Shown here: in pieces, positions 27,587 through 29,233 of the stretch
Layout: each line of letters opens with the position of its first letter
How positions within the stretch are numbered: the first letter of the stretch is position 1
Origin: Alphaproteobacteria bacterium
GTDB taxonomy: Bacteria; Pseudomonadota; Alphaproteobacteria; ATCC43930; CGMCC-115725
Direction: 5' to 3'
Assembly: GCA_030041385.1 (NCBI GenBank)
Contig: JASHNY010000242.1
Coordinates: 1-32,098 of the forward strand
DNA length: 32,098 bases
The notes under the pieces: model-generated
The model's database searches: none
What the model was told of the DNA's origin: nothing
What the model saw: only the letters and a program-made list of their open reading frames with translations
Program-made: the position numbers and the translations under genes

Positions 27587-28810
27587 TTACCGGTCGCCCC
27601 GATACGGGGCCGAACGGTCCTCGCGCGGCGCCCACACCGCGCCTTCGTCTTCCTCCTCCGCGGGCTGGTCGGCGATCGCGCCCGGCTGATCGATCGCCTG
27701 GCCCGAGGACTGGCTGCTCGCTTCGACGGACGAGCGCGCACCCGCGTCGGTGCCGTCGCCTTCCGCCGCTTCCGCCGGACCGCCACCAGTCCCGTATTGC
27801 GAAACCTCCTCGTCGTCCGGATTTGGCGCCGGCACGGCGCCTTCCGGCAGCGCCGCCATCGTGTCGGACGGCTGCTTCGCGACCTCGACCGGCAATCCGG
27901 TGCGCTGCATGCCGGCGCGTTCCACCGCGTCCCAATCGACCGCATCGGCGTATTGCGCGGCGGCTTGCCCCACGATGTCTTGCAGCCCCGCGGGCGCCTC
28001 GCGCGTGACCCGCTGGTCCGTGTCGATCTGGTCGGCCTGCTCCTTGCTGGGGTGCACTTCGAGGTAGAGGCCTCCGTCGCCGAGCCATGCCGCGGCCGCC
28101 GATTGCGAGATCACCCGCACCGGCGTGCCGACCGCAACCGAGTGGAACAGGCGCTCGATATCCTCGGGATAGAGATGGATGCAGCCGTGGCTGACGTTGC
28201 GGCCGACGCCGTCGGGCTTGTTGGTGCCGTGGATCAGGTAGTTCTTCCAGCCGAGCCGCAGCGCGAAGGCGCCGAGCGGGTCGTCGGGGCCGGGGCCGAT
28301 TTCGGCCGGCAGGCCGGGCTGCTCGGCCCGGATCGATGGCGGCGGATACCAGACCGGGTTCGGCTCCTTGCGCACCACGCGCGTGGTGCTGAGGGGCGTC
28401 GTGAAGCCGATCGCACCGATGCCGATCGGATAGGTCTGCACCGTGTGGCCGTCCGCCGGAAAATAGTAGAGCCGGCGTTCGGCCAGGTTGATCACGATGC
28501 CGCGGCGCGGCGCATCGGGAAGGATGTAAAGGCTCGGGATCGTCAGCTGCCGGCCGACGCCCGGCGACCACGGATCGACGCCGGGATTCGCCGCCAGCAT
28601 CTCGGTGTAACCGATGTCGAAGCGGCGCGCGATGTCGGCCAGCACATCACCTCTCCGGGTGAGGTAATGGCCGGGCTCGCCCACGCTGACGGTCTGGGGG
28701 GTCAGCGGAAATTCGGCCGCCAGCGCGGGTGTCGCCAGCAGCGTGACGGCAGCGGCAAGCCCATGCCCGAGCGCGCGCCAGCGACCGCGCGGCCGCGATG
28801 CGCAGATCAT
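27587..28810 (-). CDS. LysM and YkuD-domain L,D-transpeptidase
   Basis: A 407-residue exported enzyme. A signal peptide (1-31, ending TPALA-A) is followed by a LysM-like peptidoglycan-binding stretch (about 47-98, GHYLTRRGDVLADIARRFDI and IPSLYILP). The YkuD catalytic domain runs from about 103 to 245, with H194 in LIHGTNKP and the SHGCIHL motif (S207, H208, C210). Such enzymes cross-link meso-diaminopimelate residues or attach proteins to peptidoglycan. The last 160 residues are unusual: a short helical part, then an acidic Ser/Ala/Gly/Glu-rich tail with no clear domain. GGAAAGGGAACG precedes the ATG at 28810. The gene lies just downstream of the Lpp-like gene on the same strand, which suggests that lipoprotein as a substrate. 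Confidence 0.92.
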   Translation of the reverse strand: MICASRPRGRWRALGHGLAAAVTLLATPALAAEFPLTPQTVSVGEPGHYLTRRGDVLADIARRFDIGYTEMLAANPGVDPWSPGVGRQLTIPSLYILPDAPRRGIVINLAERRLYYFPADGHTVQTYPIGIGAIGFTTPLSTTRVVRKEPNPVWYPPPSIRAEQPGLPAEIGPGPDDPLGAFALRLGWKNYLIHGTNKPDGVGRNVSHGCIHLYPEDIERLFHSVAVGTPVRVISQSAAAAWLGDGGLYLEVHPSKEQADQIDTDQRVTREAPAGLQDIVGQAAAQYADAVDWDAVERAGMQRTGLPVEVAKQPSDTMAALPEGAVPAPNPDDEEVSQYGTGGGPAEAAEGDGTDAGARSSVEASSQSSGQAIDQPGAIADQPAEEEDEGAVWAPREDRSAPYRGDR

Positions 28811-28835
28811 CGACGTTCCCTTTCCACGGGTGGGC

Positions 28836-28868
28836 TCGGGCCGCCGCCCCGGTGCCGCGGCGGCTCGA
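28836..28868 (-). terminator. Hairpin between the Lpp-like and transpeptidase genes
   Basis: 28836-28845 can pair with 28859-28868 over ten positions, one of them a G-T wobble, within the 76-base gap between two same-strand genes. No T-run follows in the direction of transcription. It could lower read-through from an abundant lipoprotein message into the transpeptidase gene; this is inferred from position. Confidence 0.35.
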
Positions 28869-28886
28869 TCCAGCCGGTCGCAGCCT

Positions 28887-29138
28887 CTATTTGTGCAGGC
28901 TGCGCTGATACATCTCGCTTGCCGCGCTACGCGCAGCCTGGGCATCGGCCTCCGCCTTCTGGGCGGTCGACAGCGCTTCGTTGGCCGTCGATTGCGCCTG
29001 CTGTGCGGCAGCCATCGCCTGCTCGGCGGTGGGGCCAGGCGGCGGGGGCGGCGGCGCGCAGGCCGCCAGCATCAGCACCGGAGCACACAGCAGCAATACG
29101 CGCGTCACCTTGATCGGAGCCGGAATGGAAATCGTCAT
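28887..29138 (-). CDS. Braun-type alanine-zipper lipoprotein with C-terminal lysine
   Basis: An 83-residue lipoprotein. The signal part (1-26) has two positive residues and a hydrophobic core ending LMLAAC, a clear lipobox with Cys27. After a run of six prolines, the mature chain TAEQAMAAAQQAQSTANEAL and onward repeats Ala at coiled-coil spacing, as in the alanine zipper of Lpp/OprI. It ends EMYQRSLHK, so Lys83 is the last residue, as in E. coli Lpp, where that lysine is joined to peptidoglycan. The mature length of 57 residues is almost that of E. coli Lpp (58). A longer start would add 28 basic residues before the signal and is rejected. It lies 76 bases upstream of an L,D-transpeptidase gene on the same strand. 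Confidence 0.85.
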   Translation of the reverse strand: MTISIPAPIKVTRVLLLCAPVLMLAACAPPPPPPGPTAEQAMAAAQQAQSTANEALSTAQKAEADAQAARSAASEMYQRSLHK

Positions 29139-29233
29139 CACCACATGTTCCCCATGTTTCGCGATCCGCGTTCGGCCGGTCAGCGCTCGCCGTCGCTGTG
29201 CGGGTTTCCCCGTCCGTCGCATCTCGCATCACC

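Follow-up and report, generated by a model that had tools for sequence, protein, structure and literature searches.

The window analysed here, the whole 32,098-nucleotide stretch of contig JASHNY010000242.1, carries two co-oriented genes on its minus strand: an lpp-like gene (28887..29138) encoding an 83-residue alanine-zipper lipoprotein, MTISIPAPIKVTRVLLLCAPVLMLAACAPPPPPPGPTAEQAMAAAQQAQSTANEALSTAQKAEADAQAARSAASEMYQRSLHK, recognised by translation and PF11839, and, 76 bases further on, a ykuD gene (27587..28810) whose 407-residue product was assigned to the LdtA/B/C/E type of L,D-transpeptidases by translation, Pfam, NCBIfam and a fold match. A GGGGAA sequence at 29148..29153 (minus strand) may serve as the ribosome-binding site of the lpp-like gene. 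The 76-bp spacer (28811..28886, minus strand) contains a GC-rich inverted repeat which might conceivably set the lpp:ldt expression ratio; its hairpin in the window is no stronger than those of shuffled sequences, and a stronger hairpin occurs in several relatives. A transcription terminator between the window genes was considered and rejected, since no terminator-like site was found in the spacer. The flanking genes, which encode an ABC transporter of the peptide/nickel type and LLM-class oxidoreductases, are not envelope genes. The genome is a 4.39-Mb assembly of 264 contigs, estimated to be 98% complete. A search for its 16S gene found none; a 490-bp 16S piece from a relative in the same order is 91% identical to Azospirillum, in support of a place in the Alphaproteobacteria, among the Rhodospirillales taken broadly.

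The lipoprotein and the transpeptidase

The lipoprotein begins with a signal peptide (residues 1-26; 29061..29138, minus strand, as are all features below) that ends in the lipobox Leu-Ala-Ala-Cys27 (LAAC; 29058..29069), leaving a mature chain of 57 residues from Cys27 to the C-terminal Lys83 (28890..28892), which its conservation in the family and the class marks as the predicted attachment residue. An earlier sequence-only reading had described the lipobox Cys, the 57-residue chain and the terminal Lys, and its description is exact to the base. The residue at +2 after Cys27 is Ala and the Asp retention signal is absent, a sequence context that would allow Lol-dependent delivery to the outer membrane. 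Downstream of a Pro-rich stretch (residues 29-34), the AlphaFold model of the monomer consists of one alanine-rich helix (residues 38-82; 28893..29027), with pLDDT above 90 for most of its length. The protein thus has the lipobox and single long helix expected of the Lpp/OprI type, in which mature chains count about 57-64 residues. It scores 24.9 bits against the Pfam family Alanine_zipper (PF11839), above the cut-off of 23.1, and 22.9 bits against the NCBIfam Lpp/OprI model NF040598, under the cut-off of 43, so that by the latter model it is a divergent relative. PF04728, the family of E. coli Lpp, gave no match up to E = 1. An Rz1-like phage lysis lipoprotein, suggested by the Pro-rich start and a 12-bit score against PF23793, was rejected because the cut-off of that family is 27 and no phage genes were seen alongside.

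The enzyme comprises a LysM domain (residues 52-92; 28535..28657), a YkuD catalytic domain (residues 103-233; 28112..28504) with His194 and Cys210 in the HGT...SHGC signature, and a C-terminal tail (residues 321-407; 27590..27850) that is modelled with low confidence (pLDDT <50) and is probably disordered. Its YkuD Pfam score is 93.9 bits, LysM is also matched, and the nucleophile motif HGTNKPDGVGRNVSHGC is intact; LysM together with YkuD, the His and SHGC is the combination by which we recognise the LdtA/B/C/E type. The nearest named enzymes are the enteric LdtE, LdtC, LdtB and LdtA (39-44% identity), among solved structures the fold of the model comes closest to 4LZH, an L,D-transpeptidase of Klebsiella (TM 0.87, normalised by target length), and the nearest NCBIfam model is LdtE, at 231 bits under a cut-off of 480. 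Class-wide profile scores are bimodal (E <1e-75 vs >1e-57). Membership of the LdtA/B/C/E type, as against other YkuD proteins, is thus probable; the tree described below covers enzymes of this kind only.

The position of this enzyme and its intact SHGC motif had likewise been read exactly from the sequence, to which we add one refinement: the residue at Cys+2 is His212 (SHGCIH; 28175..28177). The published motif of YkuD transpeptidases, (S/T)XGCh(R/N), has Arg or Asn at this position (PMC10434034), and motif counts give Arg (SHGCIR) in almost every relative beyond the family, namely 47/49 alphaproteobacterial, 19/20 gammaproteobacterial and 4/4 enteric enzymes. By the stricter pattern SxGChR, with Arg at Cys+2, the window enzyme is therefore an exception; among 20 other enzymes of its family, 10 have His, nine Arg and one Gln.

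A PF03734 search found three YkuD proteins in the genome: the window enzyme, an LdtD/YcbB-like protein and an ElsL-like protein with a TEGCIA motif, the labels of the latter two being assigned by eye. The window enzyme thus appears to be the only LdtA/B/C/E-type enzyme of its genome, and in that sense the earlier description of the pair as self-contained is reasonable.

Conservation in the family and across the Alphaproteobacteria

The search for the pair in related genomes, and the check on its final Lys, that the sequence-only reading had proposed both bear it out. Among the 39 genomes of the window's family, the lipoprotein was matched in 13 by a single-protein query and in 16 by a profile, and the enzyme profile matched 17. 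Both genes are present in 16 genomes, the enzyme alone in one, the lipoprotein alone in none and neither in 22 (Fisher p 4.5e-10, a value that ignores the relatedness of the genomes). In the enzyme-only genome, G024, the enzyme copy extends to the end of the locus. Two genomes of the window's own genus (G023 and G027; 96-99% complete) lack both genes, which suggests that the two are lost together, even among close relatives. The terminal Lys is invariant in all 14 aligned family lipoproteins, which also have in common the Cys of the lipid anchor, a small number of Ala and Leu residues and a terminal L-x-K, with a spacer of variable length; most of them end in MYxRxLxK or MFQ(K/R)xLxK. Three genomes (G037, G017 and G018) hold second zipper-lipoprotein copies, at L169, L173 and L178 respectively, with no enzyme gene within the stretch examined. 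These copies run four to five residues past the Lys (RKTSSTQ, RKVAPSQ and RKGAAS) and are perhaps forms that are not anchored.

Across the class, the enzyme was matched at E <1e-75 in at least 45 of 385 evenly drawn alphaproteobacterial genomes (12%), a lower bound counted by hand from the five best candidates scored per genome. The neighbours of the enzyme were scanned with a lipobox predictor blind to the C terminus, the last residue included, and a lipoprotein candidate was found at 53 of 69 alphaproteobacterial enzyme loci. Inspection by eye removed four candidates that do not resemble Lpp (one each at L096, L133 and L151, and the second of those at L082). With these set aside, an Lpp-like lipoprotein adjoins the enzyme at 50 of the 69 loci, from about 21 families, a count that takes in several genomes per family and so does not represent independent events. 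Among the loci lacking such a neighbour, several hold a second copy of the enzyme or lie at the end of a contig. About 21 alphaproteobacterial families, and Gammaproteobacteria as well, show the pairing, which is therefore not a product of chance.

Forty-eight of the 50 linked alphaproteobacterial lipoproteins end in Lys, and the same scan of a mainly gammaproteobacterial set gave 36/36, one of them doubtful. In the two alphaproteobacterial exceptions, from Azospirillum (...RKTRS) and G219 (...RKPAR), a Lys stands three residues before the end. A control drawn from the other lipoproteins in the loci yielded three candidates, and the published E. coli figure, by which more than 20% of periplasmic proteins and lipoproteins have a terminal Lys (PMC12274547), was taken as the null. 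Chain length in the paired lipoproteins ranges from 45 to 88 residues and the sequence changes while the Lys is kept, the pattern to be expected of a protein in which nothing but its two ends is important.

A different lipoprotein occurs in another alphaproteobacterial family, f137, where it is convergent with an LdtA/B/C/E-type enzyme and ends in Lys but is not an alanine zipper (L115 3054-3263, L134 2269-2475, L144 4474-4683 and L207-L236). Its mature chain of 39-55 residues has an APYAxERT-like box and a Pro/Ala-rich linker, and three of these proteins matched no Pfam family above its cut-off. It is present in 96 of the family's 104 genomes; in the inspected loci the Lys end is found in 30/30 and the enzyme in 23/30, always convergent. 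This lipoprotein is more unusual than the zipper type of the window. Its C-terminal segment, ERVFxxxQxK, resembles DRIFRAGLRK of the zipper type, a sequence likeness which suggests that the two ends may carry the function and that the spacer may be exchangeable.

Other loci show departures from the common arrangement. In G204, an in-frame stop breaks the lipoprotein gene next to the enzyme (L149 2576-2932) and the enzyme reads SRGC, not SHGC, which would fit either a decaying gene or an assembly error. In three genomes, a small protein that resembles YkuD and bears a DWT(D/N)GCIA motif adjoins the LdtA/B/C/E-type enzyme, at L093 (181-822), L149 (2372-2539) and L150 (2621-3463), is a lipoprotein at L093 and L150, and is possibly a DpaA-like detaching partner.

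Gene order, phylogeny and age of the pair

The E. coli K-12 genes lpp (b1677) and ldtE (b1678) lie side by side in convergent orientation, and in Pseudomonas-type genomes oprI is convergent with an enzyme gene of the same type. A scan biased by the peptide patterns it used returned 20 loci, each of them labelled either as Gammaproteobacteria or a taxon in that class, or as unclassified Proteobacteria; in 16 of the 20, the enzyme is convergent with its own Lpp-like gene. Alphaproteobacterial pairs are also mostly convergent, the co-oriented arrangement with the lipoprotein first being found in the window's clade, G181, f132, G245 and Azospirillum. From this distribution of gene orders we infer rearrangement within an old pair.

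A tree of 94 enzyme sequences (LG+C20, midpoint root, no outgroup) separates 70 alphaproteobacterial from 24 gammaproteobacterial sequences with support 98/98, gathers enteric LdtA/B/C/E into one clade of their own (100/100) and places the window enzyme with its genus. A recent transfer from Gammaproteobacteria, to which the 20 loci of the biased scan had pointed, was rejected as unlikely on account of that separation and that placement. With the age of the pair read from a midpoint-rooted tree, we lean slightly towards the view that Lys-terminal tethering is old in Proteobacteria and that an ldt-lpp pair predates the Alpha/Gamma split and has persisted here and there in about 21 families of the Alphaproteobacteria, its spacer being replaceable even by the short non-zipper chain of f137.

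Predicted function and relation to known tethers

The pair very probably constitutes a covalent tether between the outer membrane and peptidoglycan of the Lpp/OprI kind. The protein would be made as a prolipoprotein, receive its lipid at Cys27 and be transported to the outer membrane, where its alanine-zipper helix, probably as a trimer by analogy with Lpp, would bridge the distance to the cell wall. The LysM-YkuD enzyme encoded next to it would then remove D-Ala from a tetrapeptide stem and join its meso-diaminopimelate to the side-chain amine of Lys83. Every step of this scheme is a prediction, from the lipidation and the outer-membrane location to the trimer, the reaction and the linkage. 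This tether had been proposed in the sequence-only reading, and it finds strong support at the sequence level in the pairing, the near-invariant Lys, the co-occurrence and the homology to Lpp and Ldt of E. coli and to OprI and Ldt of Pseudomonas. OprI is anchored by LdtPae2, an enzyme of the ErfK/YbiS/YcfS/YnhG lineage (PMC10434034). Moreover, the alphaproteobacterium R. sphaeroides contains 4.3% of a Tri-Lys-Arg muropeptide whose protein source is not known (PMC10470522) and which is what a C-terminal Arg-Lys anchor would leave.

Counted against the tether are the His at Cys+2, the two linked homologues and three unlinked paralogues with residues past the Lys, and the two congeneric genomes without both genes. 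Two published observations weigh on the same side: the phylogeny of Ldt enzymes does not reveal their function (PMC10434034), and E. coli LdtE, the neighbour of lpp, makes 3-3 cross-links and does not anchor Lpp (PMC8263019). Given this neighbour and the nearest NCBIfam model, LdtE, the window enzyme could be mainly a 3-3 cross-linker, with the lipoprotein anchored by another enzyme or unanchored. However, the alphaproteobacterial enzyme is about equally related to the anchoring and the cross-linking enteric members, and since these form one clade, the cross-linking by LdtE is no better a guide to it than the anchoring by LdtA/B/C. For cross-links, moreover, the genome can draw on its LdtD/YcbB-like enzyme, while the LdtA/B/C/E type has no second member there, and the two genes are present or absent together in the family; we therefore regard a role mainly in cross-linking as unlikely.

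R. sphaeroides DalA provides another model: this outer-membrane lipoprotein has a non-covalent affinity for peptidoglycan, co-precipitates with LDTs and is encoded beside a predicted LDT gene (PMC10470522). By analogy, the window lipoprotein might act on the adjacent transpeptidase as a scaffold or activator without covalent attachment, as proposed for DalA, but this would leave unexplained a terminal Lys nearly invariant over chains of 45-88 residues, and likewise the kinship with OprI, whose anchoring is established (PMC10434034), so that we consider it very unlikely. Least probable of all is a DpaA-like hydrolase detaching the lipoprotein: it would accord with the Cys+2 His of the window enzyme and 10 other family members, the Arg at this position being replaced in DpaA amidases, mostly by Ala or Asn (PMC8263019), but in G018 and G022, where the family enzyme bears Arg, neither the kind of lipoprotein next to it nor the gene arrangement differs, and if the enzyme only detached, none would be left to attach the lipoprotein.

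As a predicted tether, the pair resembles the Pseudomonas system of OprI and LdtPae2 in its Alanine_zipper lipoprotein with a terminal Lys and its YkuD enzyme of the LdtA/B/C/E lineage. An enzyme gene of this lineage adjoins oprI in Pseudomonas-type genomes, a neighbour not equated here with LdtPae2. Unlike the convergent Pseudomonas pair, the window genes are co-oriented, and the lipoprotein has a Pro-rich start and a lower score and the enzyme a His at Cys+2. E. coli Lpp has the same architecture, with a mature chain of 58 residues against 57 in the window and a C-terminal Lys, and its gene likewise lies beside an ldt gene, whereas PF04728 does not match the window protein and E. coli has four such enzymes to the one of the window genome. 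Gene order and orientation are shared with the p3 pair of a lipoprotein and an L,D-transpeptidase in Azospirillum brasilense Sp7 (D9621_RS26310/26305), also an alphaproteobacterium, whose lipoprotein, annotated 'alanine-zipper protein' in its record, ends ...SQRKTRS, three residues past the Lys, while the window protein ends in Lys. The beta-barrel tethers of Brucella, Agrobacterium and Coxiella are also YkuD-mediated links between the outer membrane and peptidoglycan (PMC12274547, PMC12729407), as predicted here, but they are joined through the N-terminal Ala/Gly of the barrel rather than a lipoprotein C-terminal Lys.

The tether had further been called unexpected in this lineage, a claim that stands for the literature and fails for the genomes. 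Lpp was confined to a subset of Gammaproteobacteria in a PF04728 survey (PMC8263019), and likewise in PMC12274547, and R. sphaeroides and other Alphaproteobacteria are described as having no known Lpp homologues (PMC10470522); the genomes show the pair to be widespread and its enzyme to form an alphaproteobacterial branch. That PF04728 does not match the window protein would explain why surveys with this family miss such lipoproteins. Our literature search, in which subscription journals were thinly covered, found no report of the pair in Alphaproteobacteria. What is new is its recognition as an alphaproteobacterial member of the Lpp/OprI type; the mechanism, if the pair is the covalent tether that it most probably is, would be an ordinary one. 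Reviews and recent papers assign Lpp to some Gammaproteobacteria and beta-barrel tethers to Alphaproteobacteria. The pair is a candidate class for the source of the R. sphaeroides Tri-Lys-Arg muropeptide and offers a directly testable question in the culturable Azospirillum brasilense. If it works as predicted, many Alphaproteobacteria would hold their outer membrane by an Lpp/OprI relative that PF04728 surveys have missed.
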